Shown piece after piece: positions 12,454-53,900 of a stretch of DNA of 64,000 nt. Position numbers and translations under genes: made by a program. Positions within the stretch are counted from its first letter, which is position 1, and every line of letters starts with the position of its first letter. The DNA is from Nymphaea colorata (lineage: Eukaryota; Streptophyta; Magnoliopsida; Nymphaeales; Nymphaeaceae): NCBI RefSeq assembly GCF_008831285.2, contig NC_045150.1:17498600-17562599 (forward strand), given 5' to 3'. The notes under the pieces are model-generated. The model was not told where the DNA came from and made no database searches. It saw only the letters and a program-made list of their open reading frames with translations.

Positions 12454-13727
12454 CTAATAAAGATGACAACGATAGAAGGAATACAAAGTTGACAACATAA
12501 AATTTTTATAGAGAATGATGGATGGTGGTCGGTTGGCATCCCACCACTCAGCATATTTCTTCTTCACCACTGGGCCTATGAACCAAGTGTATAATATTTG
12601 TGTCTTCCATTCTTGTCGAGCTACTGCAAACAATGCCGTCCATTGAGGAGAACTAAGGTTGAATTCGGGAATAGCTCCAATTGGTGCATGCACAGAGACC
12701 ATATTCTATCTTTGAGAGAACTGTCTCATACATCTATCAACACAATAATCAACTAAGAAGTAAGGGCCCAATAGTGTGGTACGCCCATGATGATGGTGAG
12801 TGTATCGGGGTAGGTTCTGCCAACGATCACAATAGTCCCAAATGATCTCTCCTTCATTCAATTGCTCGATCAAACGATGATATTGCTCCAAGATTGTCAA
12901 TGATCCATCAGCGTTTCTGAATAGACTGGCTTGGGGTCCCGCATGCTTGAGGAACCACAAATGTAAAACATATGTGCATCCTTCTATGAAGTTGGTATCT
13001 CCAATGGTAAAGCGGGTGAGTCCTCGGTAAAGGAAGGCTAAGGTAGTCATTGCTATTGACAAGTGTCGGGTCCCTCTATGCCCCCATACTCGAAAAAGTT
13101 GGGGAATATGGACATCTAAAAGGTCGCTTCCATCGGTAAAAAGGGTCACTCCTACTGTGCAGAGCATCATACAATGTTTAATTCTCCCTATGGTTTTTCG
13201 AGGTAGGGTAGAAGGTTCAACATAGGTTCCAAATTCTTCATACAAATTTTTCATGTTGATGCTTTGATTTTCATGGTTTTCTACTAAAGGCCAAGTTTTT
13301 CGTCCAATAAAGTGAGCAATGAGGTCATTTGCATTGACCTTGGTTGGGTTCATAAGGAATTGTTTTTCTAATAGATCATTTGGGTCACAAGTTGAGGTAG
13401 GGAGGTCTAGTATTTCGGCAAATTCATCTAGTAATATTGTCATTTTTCCCCATGGAAACCAAAAAGTGGAGGTCATTGGGTTCCAATGCTCGGTGATTGC
13501 ATGTACCAAATTTTCATCAACTGATTGCATTCCTCCAGCTGCCACTGTCTCTAGCCCACATTCTTCAAAGTAAGAAGGAAACATCCGAGAGAAGGTGGGA
13601 TGCCAAGTCCGATACCATTCAGGAGCCAAAGGTTTAGACTCAAGAGAAATGTTGGTAGACCGTTCGGACCTTCCCCAAAGAGGATGTGATCATAAGGGAA
13701 TGTGACACCACGTTGGAAAGAATACAT
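12454..13727 (-). pseudogene. Extra ORF1 upstream of gag, plant mobile domain-like
   Basis: A 307-aa open block (12706-13629) ends at an in-frame TAG, and the same frame runs on for 82 aa more (12454-12702). An ATG at 13727, in a different frame, gives MYSFQRGVTFPYDHILFGEG and probably marks the original start, with one frameshift near 13640. The core TEHWNPMTSTFWFPWGKMTI followed by LDEFAEILDLP resembles the plant mobile domain/DUF7745-type proteins found in plant transposons and in the ORF1 of Ogre-like Tat elements. Its function is not known. It lies between the leader and gag, as ORF1 does in Ogre. I am confident it belongs to the element and less sure of the domain name. Confidence 0.65.
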
Positions 13728-25519: not shown

Positions 25520-27340
25520 CCTCCCTCTATGTTGCACCCGAGCAATTCCCAAATCACACTTGCCACTATTCTTCATGCTATTAACTCCCCTCGAACTGAT
25601 TCTAATTTATGTATGAGCTTAATCATTGTAAACCCTCACGGTTTGAGTCAATTATAGGATAACAAAGAAAAATGACAATAAACTTTGATCACTAAAAACA
25701 TTTAATTGGGAACCATTGCTTGCTTGAATGTTGTGAGGGGGCGTGACTTTGTGCTAACTTTTTCTTCCCTTCTAACATTTGGTGAGTGAGTATGAGAGTT
25801 AGTTTGTTGTTGCCCTTGTACCGTTGGGTTTGTTTATTGTTGAGTGTAAGGTTTCATTGCTAGTTCATTGCCTGTCATGTGCTTTTGTGTGTTAACTTCA
25901 TTGCCGGTGGTGTGCTTTTAAGCCTTTATTCGAGTACAAATGTATGCCGCCTTGTTATCTTATATACACACTTTTGCCTCGTATATCTTCTTTTGTTTTA
26001 GGGGTTTGCTCATTTGCTGTAGCACTTTATGCATTTTGCTCATTTGCAATGCAAAACATTGAGGGCATCAATCAATTTGTAGTTGCTCCAGTGCACCAGT
26101 GAGAGTCGAGAGTGTGAGGGCTGTGCAACATTAAGGGATTTGTAATTGTAATTTTGTAGCTGCTGCTCCACCGATGCATGCAAGCAACTGTGCAACAAAC
26201 CATTGAGGGATCCTTTTTCCCTTTTTTTGTATATTACAATTCAGTAAATTTTTTCTCTTGTTGACTTGCTCGTATGAGAGGCTATTTGATGGTTTCTCTT
26301 TATTTTGTCATGTAGGCAAACTTTTTGTATTTGTTCATTCTTATGCAGTCTTCACAAAGTCCCAGCTTCCACTACCAGACAAATATCATAGCCTCACAGA
26401 TGTGGAGAAGCAATATCATCAGAATTTCTGATTTCTCGTGGCAATTAGTTAATTCTTACTAGTTTGATGTTAAAGACACCCTTAAACTTTAATGTACTCT
26501 AAAAATACATTTTGTATTGGAACAATGACCTCTGTTTTTATGGCTTATTTGACATGCATGGAGATTAGTATATCTGCTACATAAGCTGTTGAGTGAACTA
26601 TGTTTATGTTTAGTTGCAGCATGGGGATCAGTATCTCTGATACAGCTTGATTTTGCAAACCGAATAACATGGTTCTATAGGTTGCCTTCTAGGCAAAGTT
26701 TATAACATAAATTCCTTATTTTCAATTGTTTAGAAGTTTGACTTTAGAAGATGGACTGGACACCTAATAATTTTCTTTAACCCTACTACTTTAAAGGTTA
26801 TTTTAGTATGCTAGGCTGGTTCTAGTTTGATAGCTATTGAGCTAAGGAATTTTTTGGAGGTGTTTTTTTTCTAGGATATTTTATGTTGGATATGAACCTA
26901 GATTCTGATTTGAGACAAATTCTTTAGTTGATTAGATCAACAAGTATCGCCTACCATTTAGTTGAGCGTGAGCATATGAAAAATTATTGATGTTATGGTA
27001 TGTTGTGTATTAAAATTGTCACTTGACTTAAACTGTCTGGATGACGTTCTCCATAAACCTAGACCCTTTTTGTTGGAACTATCTATTCTTTCTATTGCAA
27101 GTGCCAACTAGGTGATGTGCTATGAACCAGTAACACTTCAACCTCACACAACAGCCCCTTACCATTTGCGTATCCTGAAGTAGCAGATATATTTAGGATA
27201 AAGCTAAGGTGCAGCCTCATCCATCATGAAACTCATGTTTTGTGCTTGAAATTATATGGTTTGTTGTTCTATCAAGCTACATGATAATTGACCCAAGTAG
27301 CTCTTGGCTTGAATTGGTTCCACTTGTATCATGCTATGAG
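25520..27340. other. Unassigned intergenic sequence
   Basis: About 1.8 kb of AT-rich sequence with no supported gene. Open frames are short and lack motifs. Confidence 0.4.
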
Positions 27341-27424
27341 CTATGCCACATAGGTGCGGGTACGGTGCCAGTGCGAGTACAAGTACAGACCATTTTGAAA
27401 AAACTTGGGTGTAGGGGTATGGCC

Positions 27425-27460
<36 letters not shown>

Positions 27461-28340
27461 ATATATATATCAAAAGATTAGAATTCAAACAAACAGAATA
27501 GCATATTCATAAATCATGATCCAAAATTTATAGAAATTGCTAAACAAAGTATGAAAATAATTAACATGCAAAATATATCAGCTTTGTTGATTCTCCTTAA
27601 TCGCATCATTAAGTTTAGAAGGAACAACAGATTCTGTAAGGTCCATATTAAGAGCTTGCAAATCGTGTTCTCTTTCAAGTTCCATGTCAGTGTCCTCTAG
27701 ATTAACATCCCAATACTTGGATGATCCTGAATTGTAAGTTACAATCAAACCACAATATGATTTAAGTTAATATTAACTTCAAACAACCAATATATACATA
27801 TGTATACATATCAAAGATAAAATAAGAAAGCAACACTGTAATCATCTGAAGTACGTGAAAGTAAGGTAGGTTGGAGTAGACATAAACTAAATCTTCTGCT
27901 CGCTTACTAGTTAGCTTATTTCTTTTGATATTGTGAATCTGAGAATAAGTGCTCTAATTTCTTTCACAACATGAAGAGGTTGCAGGTCGAAATAATAACT
28001 TCAATGCAAGTTGTTGGAGATTTGGTGTCGATGCTCCAAAATATAACCACCAATTAACAAGATCCCTTTCATCTCTTGCCATTGTAGCTTGCAATGAATC
28101 ACTTTTTCCAGTAGAGAAGCTCGCAAACTCATTATTTATTATCTTCAACTAATGAGAATAAAAAAATAGGCTTCCCAAATATATCTCCTTATTGTTTAAT
28201 ATTTTTAGATCTCGATTATGAGGAACATGACCAGTATCTCCTAGCAACTATGTTTGTCCATAATATTTGGGATTTAAGGAGTGTGTTATACAATGGGTTA
28301 TACTTAGATTCTATCTTCTTACTAAAATGTTATGCACATG
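27341..28340 (-). pseudogene. hAT transposon 3' end with decayed transposase C-terminus
   Basis: The right-hand part reads on the minus strand as the hAT C-terminal dimerisation domain: DLVNWWLYFGASTPNLQQLA, then SSCCERN*STYSQIHNIKRNKL (about 27905-28080, Trp changed to TAG) and SKRAEDLVYV. A last acidic exon (KYWDVNLEDTDMELEREHDL) lies at about 27590-27730. The terminus CTATGCCACATAGGTGCGGG at 27341 matches the ends of the element at 44199-48795, so the GTACGGG-rich terminal sequence belongs to a hAT family. It is truncated on the transposase N-terminal side and inactive. Confidence 0.72.
27427..27455. repeat. (AC)n microsatellite in the hAT terminus
   Basis: An uninterrupted AC run is followed by a short (AT)n. 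The same arrangement occurs at 47790-47840 in the related element, so the tract was carried by the transposon. Confidence 0.9.
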
Positions 28341-31318
28341 ATTGAAAAACTCAGAATGATCAAGTGCAACATTCTTCTTCTCATGTGATGTTTTGAATTT
28401 TTTCAATCATGTTATCCCCACATGTCATAAACTCTATGAAGCATGAGCTTTCTTTTTCAATGTTTACATATATTTCTATTTTCACTAAAGTTTATGATAG
28501 GTTTTTATTTATTTTATGAAGATTTTTGTTTTATTTTCTTAATGTGTTGTAACATATTATAGTTTATGAATGATGTATCATGAGTGTTCATTGTGTGTGT
28601 GATGGTTTTTTATATAAAATACTTTCATTATTTTTTCTTTTTTTTGAACTTTCTCTATTTTTTTGAATTTTTTTAATTCTTTATAAATTTAAAAAATAAT
28701 TTCACTAATATATTTATAATACATTACAATAGGTTACCATGCAGTGCAGCTCGATCGCTATTGTATGCCTTTTACAGTATTGGGACATCACCACTAACAT
28801 CATATTCTGCACTTTGTGGCAATGTATGCCTAATTCAACAAAAATTACAAGTTGTCTCTTGCCCATTTAAGTCTGAAGAAATATTACAATACAGTGTATA
28901 GGTCAACCCAGTCGATAGACGTTATTTTATGCCTTTTACAATATTGAGACATCACCTTGTCTCTTGCCCATTTAAATCTGAAGAAATATTATGCTCTAAA
29001 TAATTAGAAGAAAAAGTCGCAAGGGAGTGCCAATGGCAGCACTGTAAATGGTTCTATGTCAATTAAAAAATGAGATTGTGAGACAATTTCATGAGAAAAC
29101 AACAAAACTAGGGAAGATGGTGCAAAGTTGGAAAATAAAAATTTCATAGTGGTGGAACAGTTTCATAAGGGAAGACTGGCTTGCTCACGCTCCAACAACA
29201 CCAGAGGAAGCACCAAAGGTAATTCGGGCATGACAAATGAAAGAAACAAAAAATTTATGGTTTTGTTATATTGCAGAATTCAAAAATCACAACAGTATAC
29301 AAATTCAAATTTCATACCCTGAAAAAATATCATAATCTAAAGAGCATATGTGTGTTTGCTTTTGCTATTGGCAGTTTGTGGCAAGTATGGTGTGAATAAC
29401 AACCACAAATTAGCTGACAAATATTGTCACAAATGCAATATTATGACCTAATGAGTGACATTTCTAATATCTTTTATTTCTTAGGAAATATTTTAGTGAA
29501 ATGGTAATGGATTTACTACAGCCAAAGGTGTTTGCTGAACAAGATTTTACATGAATGAAAGAAAAAATGCCATTTTTGAATATCGGACAATCATTGACAT
29601 TTTTAGGTTGATACAAAGATTTCAAAGGGTAATGCATGAATAAAGATAAAGCCTGTGTAATAGGGCTGGTAACTTGGCATCAATTCTAATTTCAATCCTC
29701 ACAGGGTTTCTCAAACTTGGTCCAGATAGCCCTTCAACAGACTTAGTTAAAATGGTAGAGGAAAGACAATTTTTTCACTCCATTTATAAACAAGCTAAAA
29801 TGGAAGAGGCTTGCTTTGGAAGCCTAAATGTAGAAGTCTATCTGCTCATCAGGAATCAAAACCTGTTCTGAAATTAAGTCACATTTTCCCATTACGAACT
29901 ATAGGAAACATGTTTCTTGGTCTTCCATAGGATGATATAAGAATGGGACTATCAGCCGGGCCCTTTCTTTGTGCATTAGCCGTGGCAGCCGATGCATAGA
30001 AGAGGATTCTGCTACAGTCCCTCCACGGGAGAGAGAGAGAGGAGGGAGGGAAGGGGCATGGGGGAGGAAGGTCACAATAGAGGGAAAGGCACATGGAGAA
30101 AGTTGCAGCAAAATAAGGAAGTGAAGTGGAGGGGAAATAATGTAAGAGGTGGGTGGGATGAAGTGGATGGAGGGACAGTGGAAAGGGAAAGGGGACAATA
30201 AATGAGGAGAGATGAACAAAATGGAGGTTAACGGTTCAAATTTGAATTGGATATATCATCAATCATATCCACTTTTTCAAATATTCATATATTTGGATTC
30301 GAACACCAACAATGAAAAGTTGTATCTGAATCCAAATCCAAAATTCAATTTCACAATCTGAATCCGAATCTGATTTTTATTTTTATATTAAAATCTAAAT
30401 CTAAAATTTGAACTGAATTTTGCCAATTTTCAAAATGTAAGAGCATTATACATAGGATGTTAAAATAAGTTTGATCAAAATCTATATTCAAATCTGATCG
30501 GATGTCATTTCTTGAGTCCAAATGCAATCTGATTTCTTAATTGGATATTCCAACTTTTTAAGGAAGATATCATTCATGAAGTAACTTTCTTGTGTTTGAG
30601 AGAAGAATGCATGAGATAGACATCTTTGACTTGATGATCCTGCTATTATGCACTCCAAGGCATTGGGCATTTGATATACCTACAATTACGAAATTTTAGA
30701 ATCAAAATGTTCAATTTTTAAGAAATTAGAATTACCAAACAAACATGGTATTTTGTTTTCAGAATTATAAAACTTAAACCTGAAATTTTGATTTCATTCT
30801 AGTTTGAAGAGGAATTATGATTATGAAATTTTTATTCTTAATCAAAATTCCAAACCATCAAATGCCCTAGAAAAGTTACACGGGATTTTCTTGAAGGGCA
30901 CAAATTTAAAAGGACACTTTTTTCTTATAGTTTATGTGCTAAGAATCACAAGCTATTAGCGAAGAAATAAGACCTGCCATTCAAGAGCCATATCTATCAA
31001 CACTTTACAACATGACAAAAATGAGCTTAAGGGTGTTTGATAGGCAAAAAAAAGGCAAGGAACCGTTTCTCTATTGACAAGTTTCGCCTGGTAAGTTTTT
31101 TCGTGTTCTCTACGACTTACAATAGAGTGTCAAACATGGAAGAGTTATTACTGGATAAAAGCTCTGGTTTGACCCGGAGGGTCCGGCTTTTTTTTTCTTC
31201 CAACAATTACTTTTTTGCCCACTGGGGCGACAGCGCACATCTCCTCTCCTGTTCATTGCATCCCTCTCGGTTGCGTGAAGTGCTACCGCCTTGCCACTGC
31301 TGTTTCCGCTATCGTGAA
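28341..31318. other. Unassigned region upstream of eIF5B
   Basis: No gene was found in about 3 kb. Three things are visible. A T-rich stretch at 28560-28790 resembles the reverse complement of 44300-44470 in the intact hAT. A partly duplicated segment (TTGTCTCTTGCCCATTTAA at about 28852 and 28956) is present. Degenerate GAATCCAAATCC-like motifs occur around 30290-30400. Confidence 0.35.
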
Positions 31319-41900: not shown

Positions 41901-44900
41901 AACAGCAGTCCAAAGATGTGAATGTAGAATTTGAGACGAGGCTTTCTCAGGTAACCCCTTTTCATGTGCATTTTTTTCTCTGTTATTTTTGGAAGACTGA
42001 TTCATGGTATGTGTTCGTTCCATCTGCTTATTATTTATCAGATTGTCACGCAACTGAAGGAGCAAGGTTTGAACTCTGAGTTGTACTACAAAAATAAAGA
42101 AGTGGCAAAATATGTCAGCATAGTGCCCACGAGTGCAATTAGGTAGGTAGCCACGATCCATAGTAAAAATTTATGCTCGTCTGCTTTTTTGCTTAAATTA
42201 TTTTTGCAACTTTAAAGTAACTTGTGCTGAAAATATATAAGATTGAACCAGATACAAGGATAAAAAGTTTTTAGATAATCAGATTTTAAAGGAGTGCTCA
42301 GCCTGAATAGGTGGCATGTTTCTGGTGTTGCAGCGGTGAAGGCATTCCAGATCTTCTTATGTTGTTGGTTCAGTTGACACAGAAGAGAATGGAAGAAAGG
42401 CTCATGTTCATCAGTGAGATTGAGGTAATTCTGTTCTTCCTATGAGTCTGGGTACTGTATCACTCTCATTTTGGTTCCATGGTCAGGTCATGGTTGCAAA
42501 ATATTTAATAGCAAAACTGAAAAACTGATTAAAAGTGTTTGTTATAAGTTGATTTCTTGTTTTTAGGCACCACGGTGTATGTAGCTTCCAATCCAGAATT
42601 TTTTCATTGTCCTGTACTGATTGCTTCTTTTTGTTACTCTATGTATCTGCCTTGCAGTGCACAGTCCTGGAGGTTAAGGTTATTGAAGGGTTGGGGACGA
42701 CAATTGATGTTGTCTTGGTCAATGGTGTGCTTCATGAGGGAGATCAGATTGTTGTCTGTGGTATGCAGGTAAATTTTGGACTCAGTTCTCCTTGGTTTCA
42801 ATGTCATTGGGGCATGATGGGTCAACCTCATACATGCGCTGTGTCATATCATCAGGGTCCTATTGTTACAAACATCCGAGCTTTGCTGACACCTCATCCA
42901 ATGAAGGAGCTAAGAGTTAAGGTATACAGAAGTCTTTCGCTTGCTTTTTGTTTCTGTTGGGAGGTATTTGACAAAATCAATGAGCATAAATTTTTATTGG
43001 TGCTTTATCTACGTTAAGGATATGTTTGACAAAATTATGGCAGAGGGAGATACCGGCAGGCAAGGAGGCTTGAAGAAAGTCTATTTTATCCAAAAGTCCA
43101 ATAGGATTAAGTCCCTTCAAAATTTAGCATTATCATTTATTGTGTGATACACCATATCAAATCCTTCCAGTTCCAATTTTATTCAGACATGTGATGAGCT
43201 AGCTAACATTTGTTTTGTTTATTCTTTTAACACTAGTTCAGTACTGTGACCAGATATACATATCTAAGGTGTTTGGTGGATATTATACATTGACTCTTTG
43301 AGCTTAGGACTTCCTTGTAAGGATACCCCATCTGCTTCTCACACCAGCAGGAGTTTGTCACTGAAGAGTTTTGTTCTGCTGCGATTGCTGTGGTGCTTTG
43401 AGATTATCAAAAGTTTCGACAGACCATTTTTTTTCATTTTTATTGTCTTGGTTTAATTGGACATGAGTCCATCAAAAGAATCCCTGTAGCTTGGAATTTC
43501 CCTTGTTTTATTTGCTTGAGGCTTGAGGTGCTCTAGTAAAAATTTCTTCACCTCTTACCCTTTAAAATTGAACTCTTATATGTTTTAGCTGATGGTATGC
43601 TGCTGAAGATATTCTGATATAATATTCCACATGGACAAGAAATGCTCTGTGAAGGTTGAGGGATGTGATTATTTTCTTTCTTATCATAAAGGCAAATAGT
43701 CGAGCAGCTCGCTTCAGCCTTAATAAGCATTCCTTGTTTTTGTAACCATTCAGCTCATGTTAGTCTTAACAGTCTCACGTTACTGAGGCTTTCTCTTTTT
43801 AGTATTGAGATATGAGACCTAATGCGAATGTCACCTATGGGGATCCTGCAATTCTGTGTTATCTTGGTTTCTGTTGTGGGTCCTTCTGGACATGATTCAA
43901 ATAGTAGACATTTTATGTTAGTTGTCACTGTATTGATGGAATATGGATGACTCCTGTTTGATATGAGCTTGGGCTTACTTTTCCAAAGCTCAGTCAAGAT
44001 TGGGCTTGAATTTTGAACCAAGATATTCCTAGGTTGGCTGCTAACTAGCCTGTGGTGTCTATCCTTTGTGAAAGCCAAATAGTGGACAATGACTTTGACC
44101 ATGATAGAATTTCATGGCTGGAATAAGTAATTTAAGACATGAGGTCATTTTTCAAAGTTGTGTAGTGATAACAAGGGGCAATATATATTGCTAATAATCT
44201 ATGTCACATAGGTACGGGCAATGTTATCACTGCCGTATCGTATCGTGTATCGGTCGGGCCGACCTATACGTCGTATCGTAACGTATCGTAAATGTATCGT
44301 AACGTATCGTAAAATTATTTTTTTAATTTGTAAAAAATATTAAAAATTTATAAAAAATAGAAAAAAAATCAGAAAAATTCTAAAAAAATCCGAAAAAACT
44401 AGTAAAAATCAGAAAAATTCAAGAAAAACGTATTTAAAGGAACATTCATCATTCATGTATATGAAGTAAGACCTGTGAGCTATGCATATGAACAAGACAT
44501 TCCAAAATAAGAAATCAAACATTCAAAAAAACAAAATAACATACTAAACAACCTAAGAGTATTCAATTACATCACAATTCATAAGTTCAGAAGTCAAAAC
44601 TCAGAACATATTGACATAGTTTTCAAAACTCAAAACAAAAAGCATCGTCAATCGTCATTTGCATCATCATCTTCATTCTTCATCATCATCTTCACTTCCT
44701 TCATTAACTTCTTCTTCTATCCCCTCTGTTGCAAATGGAATGTCACCAACATTCCATTGCTCCCCCCCAGCCTCTCCTTCTTCAACAATCTCTACTGCTC
44801 CTTCAACATTCAAAAAATCAAGATCGTCCTCATCAAGTATTGCAGCTGGTTCTTCTTCAACCCAAGAATCTAATATATCAAAATGGTCAATGAAGATAGG

Positions 44901-47788
44901 ATCATATTGATTGTGATGCTTCCTCGTAGATGTTGTTTCTAGTTGCCTAACAAGAGAAAAAATTAACAAATTGTTAGAGATTAAAATATATATTAGAATT
45001 TGATATTCTTGTATAACAAAACAAATGTTTACCTTTGTCTCAACTTCATATTATAACGAACATAAACAAGGTCATTCAACCTTTTATGTTCCAGCCTATT
45101 CCTCTTCTTACTATGGATGTGCTGAAATACACTCCAATTTCTTTCACATCCAGTTGCACTACATGTTTGACTGAGGATTCTAATTGCAAGCTTCCTTAAT
45201 TCTGGGCAATCAGGCCCAAACCTTTCCCACCACAAATCTAATAACAGATGGAAAGTAAAAATGTTGTCAGAAATAAATATATGAGAAGGTAGAATAAAAG
45301 CTAAACAACAAAAAGTATAAAGTTTCTTTTTCTAATACCTGGACGCATAGTTGTCCTGCATCGAACTGCTGTGTCTCTCGCCATGGTACCAGAAGCCGTA
45401 TCATATTTGTTGATCGACATATGGATAGCGTCTTGTTCTTTACTATCACTTACTAATACATCAATGCAATCCAACATGTCATACTCGACCTCTCTGTCCT
45501 TCTTAAAAGTGGGAAGATATCTAATAGCAGGATTTAGGTAGTAGGCTGCTGCATGAAGTGGGCGATGAAGTTGTCCAGACCACCTTTCATCTATAATCTT
45601 CCATATAGGCATGTACTTCTTTTTTCCCTTCATATTATCTCTAATGGCCTCCTTGGCTCTATCCATAGACTCGTATAAATATCCAATAGAAGGTCTATCT
45701 TCACTATCAACTAATCTGAGGACTTTCACTAGAGGTACACAAATCTTCAATAAGTGCACACATGATTCCCAAAAGTCAACATCGAAGATGGTATCCACAA
45801 CTGTCGTAGCCTTTCTTTTATAGGCATGTGGATATGCAGCCCAATCATCACTTGAAAACATCTGCCTGAGAGAAGATCTTTGCTTGACTATACCCTGCAC
45901 AGTCAAAACATTTGTAGCAAACCGTGTTTGTGCAGGTCGAATCAATTCAGCCCCATTTGTGAATTTCCTCATCAAATTCAAGACATAAGCATGATTGTAA
46001 ATAAACTTTGTGATTTCTTGGCATCTGTGAACTGTCAACTTCATATCATCCCTTTCACCAAGATCCTGAAGCATAAGATTTACACAGTGAGCAGCACATG
46101 GACTCCAATAAAATGTCCCATATCGTGTTGCTAACATTTCACCTGCAGCTTTATAATTTGTTGCATTATCAGTGATAAATTGTACGACATTTTCAGGCCC
46201 AACTTCTTCTATAACTTTATCAAAAATCCCAAACAACACATCAGCAGTCTTCGGAGTATTAGACAAATCAACAGATTTTAAGAACATAGTACCAAGAGGG
46301 CAATATACAAGGAAGTTTACCAATGTTCTGTTCTTGATGTCTGTCCACCCATCTGCCATTACACTGCATCCTGTAGCTTTCCAACTCAATTTTAGTTCAT
46401 CACAATATGTCTTCACATCTCTAACTATATTGTTGAGAATTTTACCTCGCAATTTATGAAAAGAGGGCATTTTATACCCTCGCCCTACACTAGCAATCGC
46501 ATCTGCTATAGACTGATAATGATAAGAGTTTGCTGCATTGAAGGGAATGGATGCATCATAGAACCACCTTCCTATGGTTTCATCTGCTGCTTCAATAATA
46601 TCCTTTGATTGCATGGCTATACGAATCTCAGGCTGAGCACCAGCAGCAGTATAATTGGGAAAAAAATTCTTGATCGAACCAGACATATTGCTCGACTTCA
46701 TAGTAGGTACTCTACCACCACCAGTACGACCCTGACTTCTGCCACGTCCTCGTGAAACTGAACTTATACTTGCACCTCTTCTTTTTCTGGTTGCAGTTGC
46801 AGAAGAACCACCTTCATGCATGATGCCTTTCCCTTTAGTTGTTCCCAAACTGACACCAACATCTTCTTGTTCAAGTTGAACATATTCACCTTCACTTTCT
46901 TTTCCTTCATGTGGGTCCCCATATCCTTCCTCCGCATCTTCCATGTCCTTTTCAATCCTACTTGCTTTCACTGCATCAAGAAGCTGCTGACACTGGTGCT
47001 TTACATACGCTGGCAATGGGATCTCTTGGGAGCCATTGCAAGCAGCCACATCGCTGTGTGTACCAGCTATATGGTGTTTAAAGCGAGAAATCCCTCCTGA
47101 TATGATTTGCTTACAATAATTGCACTTAACTCTTAATCTATCTTTGGGATTCACCCTTGTACACCACTGCCATGCAGGATCCGACATTATATCTTCACAA
47201 AACAAGTAAAAACGTACAAATAAATGTAGGAAATAAGAGAAATGAACGATTCAACGGCAAAAATGAGTTATTTCTTACCTTCTTGGTGTTAAAAACCAAA
47301 AAACCCTCTTTCTCCAAGCTTCCCACCGTCTCAAGACTCCCCACAACGAGAAATGAAGCTTCTTCACCGGCAAATCTTGATGCAATGGAGAAAATCTGTC
47401 CCTCCCACGTCTCTCGTAGCGTTGAGAAACAAGAAGAGAGAGAGAGAGGAGCGTCGGTTTGAGAATAAGAAGCAAAAAGGGGCCCGACGGCCCCTTTTTT
47501 AATTTTACTCCCGTATCGTGCGATACGGGGGTGTATCGCACGTATCGTGCGATACACCCACCGTATCGTACGATACGTGCGATACGCGTATGATACGTAC
47601 GCGTATCGTATTTACTAAGTGTACCGTATCGAAAACTATGATACGGACGATACGTATCGTACGATACGCGTCCGTATCGTACGATACGGATAACATTGGG
47701 TACGGGTAACGGGTGCCGGTGCGGGTACGGGTACGGGTACAGATCATTTTCAAAAAACTTAGGTGCGGGGGTACGGCTTTACACGCAC

Positions 47789-47839
<51 letters not shown>

Positions 47840-48625
47840 GTCAAAAAAATTCAAACAGAATAACATATTCACACATATATATATCAAAAAATTACAAACA
47901 AAATAACATATTCATAAATCATGATCCAAAACACAGTATGGAAGTTCCAACTTGCAGATTTTCACTCAGGCCTTCTCTTCAGCAATGCTTTATTTTCTTT
48001 TAAGTGTACTTTTGGTTGTAACACTTTAAGTTTGAGAGCGGGTGTTAAAAATTGTGTAATGAATGTGTATGTGCGTGTGTGTGTATGTGTAGATATAAAA
48101 CGGGAATTCCCACTTTGGGACTAGTTTTTCCAACCTTTTTTCTCTCCCTTGCTTTTTCTCTGTCCCTCTTTTCATATTTCCTTTTGCACCTCTCTGCCTT
48201 ATGATTGGTGGATTGTGGAATATATATGGCATATATATAATATGCTTTGTTAGTGTGTATAGCGAGCAAATATGTTTGCAACCACATGGGTACTGCTGTA
48301 AAGGCAGCGTACCCGTACCGGCCAGGTACGACACTGGCGCTGGTACTGGTACTGTCCTGGGTACCTCTTGGGCACTGGTCAAACAGTACCGGGTACGGTC
48401 AACGTACCCAGGACTGTATCCGTTCAATTTAAAACTCGATCAAAGTTGACCAAGTCCTTTCTTATCCAAAATTTATGATTTCAGTTTTGTTCTTTACACC
48501 ATTTACACTCAGGAAACACATACAAAGTTGTGTTTTCATATTTTTTTCAATAGTTTCTTCTTTAAAAACTATAAATTTTGAATCATGAATGCGCTATTTT
48601 GTTTGAATTCTTATTTTATGTTATA

Positions 48626-48701
<76 letters not shown>

Positions 48702-48794
48702 CGTACCCCCGTACCCAAGTTTTTTGAAAATAGTCCGAACCAGTACCCGTACCAGCACTCGTACCGGCAACCGTACCCGTACCTATGTGACATA

Positions 48795-48834
<40 letters not shown>

Positions 48835-50923
48835 AAAATATTTGTCTATGTATGTATGTATTTTGTTAGTATGTGCATATATTGTAAATATATTTTTATA
48901 TAGGTTAAATATGTAATTTTTTATTTTATATTCTGTATTTTTTCCTTTTCTGTTCTTATATTTATTGACTAGATTCTGGTCATTTTTAGCCTTTTACCAG
49001 GATTGACCTAGTTGTTGGCACCAATGGCTAGCTCAATGTGTTCTTCATCTGCATGTATTTAAAACCTCACCTTCTTGGCTATGCTTCTCTAAGCACTTCG
49101 CTGTAAATAAGGACTTACTTTTTTATGTTGTTAATGCCAAAGTGTGTAACTCTCTAGTATCTTGGTTGTGGTTTTGTGCATATATAGCTTTAGTAATTTC
49201 CTTGCATCTCTTGTGAGTTAAGTCTCTTTTGACTTTATTATTAAGATTGGGTCTCGTTTAACAGATACAACTTGCATGCTACTATGTAGACACACACATG
49301 GACATATATACTGTTGGTTTACCATTAGGAAGCTTGTGACGTTCTATACAGCAGAAAAATTCTTTCAGAATAATGTGGAAGCAGGGTAATATTGCTTAGA
49401 AATGATGAAATAGTGATGAAGGTCAAGAGTTTGATTGGAATCAAAGATAGATGGGCCATAGAATGAGTAGGAAAAGGGCAGCAAAAATTTGCTTAATAAT
49501 CATTAACCACCTTTTCAGGAAAAGGGCAGCAAAGGTTTGCTTAATAATCATTAACCACCTTTTCATGAAAAGGGCAGCAAAGGTTTGAATTATAAGATTC
49601 CAGGTTTTGAAGATCAAAATGAATACATGAAGGATTGCCTCATAAAAGACTTGCTTCAAAAGATTGACATGACTTAGCTCATAACATGCTTGGTATTAGA
49701 GAAAATGTCAGTTGTATATGCTTTTCTCAAGTTAGTTTAAGATCTCATTCAAAATCAACAATCATTAGAGGCCCGACTTACTCCCTGTTTCTCATCTTGC
49801 CTTATCCAAGCACACGATATGCTGACATATGTGCTGGGTGCTAATATTTGCTGCTTGATACTAGTATCTGGAGAATTTGTCATGTTGTGGATAATCAAGT
49901 TTAGTGATGCTATACAATATATTGACACGTGGTCGATTTTAAATATTTGGTGGAGATACTAATGGTTTTTATGCCAGTGTAAAATCAAGTCCAGAAATGC
50001 CATAACATACAATCGTGGAAAGGCTCATAGTTACTTATTTAGGTACGGTGGTGTAAAATCAAGTGAGTTTAGGGAGTCTTGTAAACTCCAATTGGGGCGT
50101 CTGTTGCTGGTGACCTGACATAGTGAAGCTGTTAACTGTAGCCTAAGCGAGTTACAATCATGGAAATACTGTGTCAGGCTGAGTTTAAAAATTGACCTAT
50201 GAAGGTGATCAACAGTAAAAATCAGGTTGTCTGGTCAATTATGGTCATTGTTCATTTTGCACCTTGCGGTTGTTGGAGGTAAATTTTTTCGCCCATTCCA
50301 TGTTGTAAGTTTGTCACAACGGAAGTATGTTACAGGGTGTCGATAAACACACATAAAACTGAAAATATCATCTCTTTCTGTTGTCATTGTTGTATGTTGA
50401 GGCAAACATTAAATGTTTCACCTGTAAATTTATGGTGATTGATTGATATAGAGAGGAGGATTAGAGTTTAGTACCTCTATTACTAAGTGCCTACTTGGAT
50501 GTTCATGGTTAACTTTGAGAATTTCATCCAAGTTTACCTTGAGAATTTCTTCTCAAATCTTTTGGTTTACTCTCTGAATGCAGGATGATGTTCTACACAA
50601 TTGGCTTTCTTACTACAATCTGCTTTCTACTATGTCATACAACCTCCCTTTGTTTGCGTTTGCTTAATCAATTGATGTCAATTTTTTATCCTTAAAAGAA
50701 ATTTTAGGCACATAGCAGTCCACTGAATTGGCCGATATTGCAATATTTATCTCTGCTTTGTTCTATTCTCTTGGGGTATTTAGTTGCGCTGTTTGTAGCA
50801 CATGAAAAGTAGATTTGTTATTGGCACACAGAAAAAGTATTAATGTTGTATGTGTATGTATGTGGACACATTTAAGAATATATAATGCTCTACTTGTGGA
50901 ACTAGAAGTCTAAAAGTATGTCA

Positions 50924-50984
<61 letters not shown>

Positions 50985-53900
50985 CAGAAAGTCATGATAT
51001 GATTATGGGATAGCATGCTTTTGATCTTGAATGTTGATCGCGTGTTGGCTAGATCATATAATGGCTTATGTGGGTTGTGTGAAATCCAAATTTAGATGGT
51101 CCACCAAAATATTGTTCTCAGTGCTACATGTCTATGATATCAGCTCAATCCGTAAAAGTTACCCATGTCACATGGTCCTCTTGTGTCTTAAATGCTGTGG
51201 CTACTTGTATCTCCTTTTCACATTTTCACTTCTGTCTGGTCAAAGTTGGAATCTTGGTTTTATCTTTTTGATGTCAAACACAGTTAGGCAATGTGAATGG
51301 CCAAAGAAAGCCGTGTCACAAGTAACATGATCACAAATTTCAAATGCTTATCAGTTATTATTTTAGAAAACAATTTTGATGTACTCTAAATTTTATCTTT
51401 TATTATTTCCAAAATGGATAAGAAAAACATAAAAGAAAGAAGGGAAAGCAAAGGCTAAAGAGTTTATTTTTTTAATTTATTTGCTTTTGAACTTCAGGGA
51501 ACATATCAACACCATAAAGAGCTCAAAGCTGCACAGGGCATCAAGATTACTGCACAGGTGATCTCCATTTCATTTTCCTGTTCATAGTTGTATTGGAACC
51601 ATACAATCTGAAACAATTTTGCTACCTGATCCTGCTAAAATATGTGTGTTGTACATTCTTCTATTCCAGGGCCTTGAACATGCGATTGCAGGTACCCAGT
51701 TATATGTTGTAGGGCCTGATGATGATTTGGAAGAAATAAAAGAGGAAGCAATGTCAGATATGGAGACTATCATGAAAAGGATTGACAAAAGCGGTGAAGG
51801 TGTGTGTGTGCAAGCATCTACTCTTGGCTCACTTGAAGCTCTGTTGGAGTTTCTAAAGAGTGTTAAGATACCAGTTAGTGGTGTAAATATTGGTCCGGTA
51901 CACAAAAAGGATGTTATGAGAGCCAGTGTTATGCTTGAAAGGAAAAAGAAGGAGTATGCAATTATCTTGGCATTTGATGTGAAAGTAACACCAGAGGCAA
52001 AGGAGCTAGCAGATGAGGCTGGTGTGAAGATATTTATGGCAGATATTATCTATCACCTGTTTGACCAGTTCACAGCATATATCAATAATCTTAAAGAAGA
52101 GAGGAAGAAAGAGGCAGCTGATGAGGCAGTTTTTCCTTGTGTTCTTAAGATTGTTCCCAATTGTGTCTTTAACTCGAAGGATCCAATTGTGCTGGGAGTT
52201 GATATTCTTGAAGGAATTCTGAAGGTTTGCTTTCTTCATTTTCTAACAAATTTCTCCTCTATTTTATAACTAGTTTTTAATATCGTGTGCTTTCAACTCA
52301 TTTTGCTATTATGGACTCTTACGAGAATGATCATGTACATTCTTAAAACGTCAACAAAAATATAGATAAAAAAATTGGAAAGTAGAAGTTTAGGTGATGG
52401 TCTGCTGTAAGAGCAACATTTTGGAACAATTCCTTATAGCAACTTTATTAATGTGCGATCAATCCGGTGGTTGATAGCTATGTCCATGCTCTGCATTCAG
52501 GTTGGGACTCCAATTTGTATACCTTCGAGAGACTTTATTACTATTGGAAGAATTGCGTCTATTGAGGACAATCACAAGGATGTTGAAACTGCCAAGAAAG
52601 GCCAGAAGGTGGCTGTGAAGGTAAAATGTAGCATTGCAGATGCGCTAAATATGATTTGGTATCTCAGTTCAGTTTTCATTTCCTTTTTTTATTTGTTTGA
52701 CCATTTTTATGCTATGCTTTTTACATGCAGATTGTTGGTAGTAATCCAGAAGAATCACAGAAGATGTTTGGTAGGCATTTTTCAATCGAGGATGAACTTG
52801 TTAGTCAGATCTCAAGGAGGTCCATTGATGTGCTGAAAGAGAACTATAGGGTACAATTTCTTGTCAATGCAAATATTTTTCTCTTACTGTTTTATTTTTA
52901 TGCCATTTTTTACAATCACTATATTATGATATTCTATATATGCTATGAAAACACCAAAGAATGCTGGCTATATATTGTTACCGGTGACAGTATAGCAATT
53001 ATTTAGAATATAATTGTATCTTGTTGCAAGGGATGATGAAAACAATAGTATTTGTGAAGCTCCTTTGAATGTCACCGGGAAGAGAAGCATTTTGTCAACG
53101 CCTCATCTCTAATAAAGCTCTGCATTCTTTACCTGATATCAGAATGCTGTCTTTTGAAATAGTGTCTACACAACCATTGAATCAAAACTTTGAGATTAGG
53201 AAGCAATCTGGAGTTAACTAACAATCAGATATTTGAGATGCTTATTGCTTCACAAACCTGCTATGTCCGGGAACCCAGATTACTTTATGGTGCCTTCTCT
53301 CATCTCTGATTTGTTGAATCATGTGAAAGATGAGATTGGTTCAACTGAATATGATAGCTCAAAGTTCGAAAATTATACTTCATTGTAGCATTACTATTAA
53401 CTCTATTTGGTTACTCAGAGACCTTAAGAGACCTGTGACATTGACTTGGCAAATCTACAACAGATCAATTTCCAGTACCATTTAACCATGTTGGAAGTGC
53501 TTGTTGATTGATTTGGAATGGAAACTGAAGGGCTTAAGTAGGGCTGCACAACGAGTCGAGCCAACTCGGGCTCGACTCGAACTCGCTCGAGTAAACTCGA
53601 CTCGAGCTCGACTCGTTTTTTATATGAGTCAAGCTCGAGCTTAAATATAAACTCGAGTATGTTAACGAGCCGAGTTTGAGTTAGTCAAACTCAACTCGAT
53701 TAAACTCGACTCGGCTCGACTTTAATTTTTCTTTTAAGTTTTCCCACTTTCTTTTGTTTTGCATTTTTAAATTTTTCCTCCTTTTTCACGCTTCCTCTTT
53801 TCCTCATTATTAAATCTCATCTCATCATTACTCTTTTCAACCACTCTTTCCATTTCCCTCTCGTTTTTCTTTTCCCTCTCATTTTTTTCCCTTTCCTTTT

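Follow-up and report, generated by a model that had tools for sequence, protein, structure and literature searches.

Comparison with described hAT elements

Tag1 of Arabidopsis is about 3.3 kb long, with ends that start with CAATG, and as far as those two features go it is similar in ends and size class to a hAT element that lies at positions 44219 to 47698 of a 64,000-nt stretch of Nymphaea colorata contig NC_045150.1. The whole of this stretch is called the window here, and all coordinates are positions in it. The element is 3,480 bp long and carries its transposase gene on the minus strand. A second likeness is to Ac/Ds, in that full-length copies with an open transposase frame stand beside deleted derivatives sharing their ends; the ends themselves differ from those of Ac, and the family described here is known from sequence alone.

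Several further systems bear on how such an element might work. Short subterminal repeats bound by transposase or its BED domain are described for Herves, Ac, Tol2, and Tag1 in a passage of PMC3143072, and for Hermes in part of PMC10368747, which also gives Hermes a BED finger. A title cited in PMC3143072 ascribes to Tag1 a zinc-finger N-terminus recognizing subterminal motifs; the motifs that appear to be Tag1's in a passage of that paper are of the AAACCC type, whereas the element in the window has CGTATCG. Hermes, from the housefly, has a target preference, nTnnnnAn, documented in a passage of PMC2803484. It is like the element here in its BED finger, in acidic residues that align within residues 203 to 677 of our protein, and in a target leaning toward the same pattern; the relationship is remote (E 3.7e-7), and a DUF659 match and a predicted spliced gene distinguish the transposase in the window. 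Hatvine of grapevine, as described in part of PMC2528002, is likewise a multicopy hAT with 8-bp target-site duplications (TSDs) and short terminal inverted repeats (TIRs); many of its copies are deleted and some keep an intact frame, in which respect it is a near precedent. It belongs to another host and another family, and transcript matches (ESTs) exist for it according to the same passage.

We consider it very probable, from its structure and its relatives, that the element in the window belongs to a young hAT family that would move by cut and paste, and that it is potentially autonomous. The family is a new one of a known kind, a hAT working like Ac/Ds or Tag1, and its mechanism adds nothing new. 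Its value is that one plant genome supplies both a defined set of intact hAT copies of recent origin and the deleted derivatives that correspond to them. Among the papers listed in literature searches, those on hAT elements were general and none was on this family, a result that does not in itself establish that none exists.

Structure of the element and its transposase

The first-pass annotation of this DNA, made from the letters alone, had described inverted termini, a perfect 8-bp duplication, and a three-exon, 775-aa transposase without a stop, all within an intron of eIF5B, and these features are borne out, the exon structure as a prediction and the host gene as eIF5B-like. The element ends in 10-bp TIRs with the sequence CAATGTTATC, at 44219 to 44228 on the plus strand and 47689 to 47698 on the minus strand, which are exact inverted matches to one another. 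It is flanked by two exact copies of the 8-bp word GGTACGGG, at 44211 to 44218 and 47699 to 47706. Short exact TIRs and an 8-bp TSD are what is expected of a hAT element.

The transposase gene is a minus-strand open frame of 775 aa that runs from 47187 to 44673 through three exons, the splicing being a prediction. Exon 1 (45339 to 47187, with the ATG at 47187) encodes the BED finger, the DUF659 region, and the start of the hAT dimerization match; exon 2 (45033 to 45237) holds most of the dimerization region and the catalytic Glu; exon 3 (44673 to 44946) holds an acidic tail and the stop. The splice positions that the first-pass annotation had named, 45339/45237 and 45033/44946, are the edges of these exons. 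The two predicted GT..AG introns measure 101 bp (45238 to 45338) and 86 bp (44947 to 45032), and the GT and AG of both are kept in 30 of 30 copies of the family (see below). A possible further GT..AG intron of 86 bp in the 5′ untranslated region (47193 to 47278), with GT and AG in all 30 copies, may also be present; like the gene, these introns lie on the minus strand.

The protein has the domains of a hAT transposase. Matches to Pfam comprise DUF659 (E 5.7e-57, above the curated cutoff), the dimerization domain Dimer_Tnp_hAT (PF05699; 50.9 bits against a cutoff of 21.4, E 1.4e-13), and a BED zinc finger (zf-BED, PF02892; 28.9 bits against a cutoff of 20.6, E 1.2e-6). The Hermes transposase, for which a structure has been solved, aligns with residues 203 to 677 (E 3.7e-7), and D279, D340, and E648 fall in this sequence alignment opposite the acidic residues of Hermes that we take to be its catalytic Asp-Asp-Glu triad. 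Their minus-strand codons lie at 46351 to 46353, 46168 to 46170, and 45143 to 45145, respectively. D279 and E648 are kept in 30/30 copies and D340 in 29/30, with N in the remaining one. No relative of exon 1 was confirmed in IMG/VR.

Inside the TIRs lie subterminal repeats of the heptamer CGTATCG. The left array has five copies (44234 to 44309, plus strand), and the right array, largely palindromic, has seven forward and six reverse copies (CGTATCG/CGATACG) at 47512 to 47688. Of 19 occurrences of the two forms in the window, 18 lie within the two ends of the element and 1 elsewhere. By analogy with other hAT elements, these repeats are probable binding sites for the transposase.

A cycle of movement can be proposed from these parts. 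The transposase would be made from a spliced minus-strand transcript, its production and activity being presumed from the gene; its N-terminal BED finger probably binds the CGTATCG subterminal repeats; and the protein would pair the CAATGTTATC ends. An RNase-H-like Asp-Asp-Glu center would then excise the element and the excised DNA would be joined to a target with an 8-bp stagger, host repair giving rise to the 8-bp duplication. In the present case the target was a site close to one end of an older repeat, within the eIF5B-like intron.

The family across the genome

The genome searched was the assembly from which the window comes (407,766,735 bases in 783 contigs). A 22-mer from the left end of the element has 61 exact matches in it, against 0 for the reversed control, and a 27-mer from the right end has 105, against 0, so the element stands far beyond chance. 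The full-length element, used as the query, found 1,556 candidates; only 40 of them were scored, so that all copy counts are lower bounds. The 30 best loci, window copy included, form the set of copies analyzed.

A genome search for near-identical copies sharing the termini had been suggested by the first-pass annotation. In 26 of the 30 copies both 10-bp ends are present, with an exact 8-bp duplication around them. Since all 26 duplications differ from one another, these copies are separate insertions rather than one old insertion copied with its flanks. The exceptions are a copy with an altered end (L025), two with one mismatch in the duplication (L026 and L031), and one with no duplication (L037). 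At 14 further loci the duplication is exact in 12; L043 has one mismatch, and L052 has no right end in the stretch fetched. Targets lean toward the nTnnnnAn pattern, with T at position 2 in 16/25 (p 0.0007) and A at position 7 in 13/25 (p 0.025), both relative to the base composition of the window; the preference is a leaning only.

With the gene model of the window applied, the transposase frame is intact in 12/30 copies. In four of the others (L010, L015, L016, and L029) the sole defect is a 1-bp loss, with the protein ending at residue 760 to 762.

Shorter members of the family are also found. Three of them (L039, L041, and L042; 1,030, 969, and 970 bp) have one common deletion junction, from about element position 437 to 2853, and occupy three separate sites, each with its own exact duplication; they are 99.4 to 99.5% alike where aligned. 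A fourth, L040 (1,157 bp), is another deletion form. Because nearly all of the transposase frame is gone from L039, L041, and L042, these derivatives presumably moved in trans.

Two observations on the family stand apart from these counts. The 10-bp end CAATGTTATC occurs 1,806 times in the genome, compared with 563 for its reversed control; the excess of about 1,240 is far above the number of copies read and points to more families, or to short derivatives, with the same ends. In addition, the family has inserted into itself at two loci, L014 (contig C14) and L033 (contig C11), where one copy is nested in the left portion of another, whose own sequence supplies the exact 8-bp duplication around the inner copy. 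Tandem duplication was considered for these two contigs and rejected in favor of self-insertion, the pieces of the outer copy overlapping by about 8 to 11 bp.

Recent movement and possible present activity

The family moved very recently, as judged from its copies. The median pairwise distance among the 30 is 1.75%, and the closest pairs (L013/L015 at 0.06%, L014/L021 at 0.09%, and L017/L023 at 0.12%) lie in different places with different duplications. These pairs, together with the 12/30 open frames, the uninterrupted copies of the target repeat (see “The target site”), and the 26/30 separate insertions, uphold the recent mobility proposed by the first-pass annotation. A substitution rate of about 7e-9 per site per year, as in Arabidopsis, would give the 0.06% pair an age of some 40,000 years and the terminal branch of the window copy one of at most about 0.9 million years; a perennial host may accumulate substitutions more slowly, which would push both dates further back.

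Several observations weigh against reading the window copy as a fresh product of a functioning family. Its nearest relative is 0.95% away and its terminal branch is 0.6% long, with 11 bases unique among the copies, and by this measure it is moderately young and not among the newest insertions. At 45616 in exon 1 (about codon 524) it has lost 3 bases that are present in 28 of the 29 others. Its own GGTACGGG duplication does not fit nTnnnnAn. Against the other copies its dN/dS is 0.613, a weaker constraint than the 0.447 pooled over 435 pairs of the 30 copies, pairs that are not independent of one another. Nor is the openness of its frame by itself proof of function, because a neutral copy at 0.6% divergence would be expected to have about 0.66 nonsense changes; the open frame fits an explanation by youth. 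Across the family, stops or frameshifts are already present in 18/30 copies.

We would tentatively place close to an even chance, if slightly under it, the proposal that the family is active today, with intact copies moving both themselves and the derivatives of about 1 kb as a native two-component, Ac/Ds-like tagging system. If active, the family could serve as a tool for gene tagging and help to show how essential genes tolerate insertions in their introns. That the family is instead recently extinct or silenced, its copies young enough to look intact and the frame in the window open through the short time elapsed, is a serious alternative to which we would give somewhat less than an even chance. 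The small expected number of nonsense changes and the 18 damaged copies speak for such an end to activity, as do differences confined to single copies, which are spread evenly over codon positions (64/61/56) as for inserted copies without constraint. The pairs 0.06 to 0.12% apart at different sites, on the other hand, put the last jumps near the present, and differences shared between copies lean to third codon positions (32/32/48), a sign that selection probably acted on the source copies until recently. Transposons usually show this picture: selection maintains a working transposase in source copies, and copies drift once they have been inserted.

The target site

The element interrupts an older repeat. 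The left part of that repeat (CTATGTCACATAGGTACGGG; 44199 to 44218, edge approximate) and its right part (47707 to 47800) lie on the plus strand, and the insertion is near the end of the repeat, the duplicated word starting about 12 bases from the repeat edge. An uninterrupted, inverted copy with 80% identity occupies 48696 to 48814 (minus strand) in the same intron, and a second uninterrupted copy in the window (78%) lies at 27332 to 27447. Comparison of the joined flanks with the genome gave 908 candidates; 40 were scored and all match, one being the window's own right flank. Among the 39 others, 11 were read, and 11/11 are continuous over the junction without the insertion. This comparison with an insertion-free site rests on paralogues, not on accessions. 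Ten of the 11 have the same spacing over the junction as the joined flanks, except for one extra A in the window; the remaining copy, L062, has one more hexamer than the other 10.

The length of the duplication at this site calls for care. GGTACG hexamers form a run in the flank, and further copies of GGTACGGG lie to the right of the element in the window. Because this run makes GGTACGGG overlap itself, the site taken alone can also be read as a 2-bp duplication. It would then be supposed that the 8-bp match is partly an accident of the flank and that the true duplication is shorter, having arisen in a repeat copy longer by one hexamer. In support of that supposition, GGTACGGG recurs with a period of 6 in uninterrupted repeats: L054 and L055 each hold it twice, and L062 holds it three times. 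The letters seen here would also result if a copy like L062 had gained a 2-bp duplication. Against it, the flanks minus one 8-bp copy match the spacing of 10/11 repeats (apart from the extra A), with L062 alone being longer, and the unduplicated join is present in 0/11 outer-repeat copies. A duplication of 8 bp is favored in the window because other copies of the family have exact 8-bp duplications, in 25 of 29 cases and in unrelated sequence; we therefore regard a shorter duplication as highly improbable.

Least credible of all, to the point of being negligible, is that the transposase is a domesticated host gene and not a mobile element, since the open frame, the predicted spliced gene, and a dN/dS below 1, which would agree with domestication, are set against the many copies that have the ends together with an exact duplication and against the existence of internally deleted derivatives, whereas domesticated transposons are, according to part of PMC2528002, generally single-copy and without TIRs or TSDs.

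The older repeat is itself abundant: it starts with CTATGTCACATAGGTACGGG, contains GTACGGG-type repeats, and has at least 40 genome matches among the 908 candidates. The two inverted copies at 44.2 to 48.8 kb may bound a single older element of about 1.1 kb, which would have been the target of the hAT.

Host gene and other mobile sequence in the window

The exons flanking the insertion match GTP_EFTU, GTP_EFTU_D2, IF-2, and GTP_EFTU_D4, the D2 match scoring 20.2 bits, below the Pfam cutoff of 30.3. The domain set fits an eIF5B-like gene, and the intron holding the insertion spans 42922 to 51497 on the plus strand (8.6 kb). The transposase is antisense to this gene.

The first-pass annotation had also described all the remaining transposon coding regions of the window as broken. 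This was examined in part, on five open frames of 156 to 338 aa that have reverse transcriptase or integrase matches and that look like pieces. A decayed remnant of another hAT transposase lies at 27867 to 28118 on the minus strand (41% aa identity over 93 residues). A copy of the older repeat is close by, so that this repeat may form the end of a related hAT family. A candidate left-end match at 28650 to 28740 was rejected as low complexity; its sequence is A+T-rich, and its strand is not the one that the coding remnant would call for. Lastly, a 327-aa open frame at 12709 to 13689, minus strand, has a match to the plant mobile domain PF10536.

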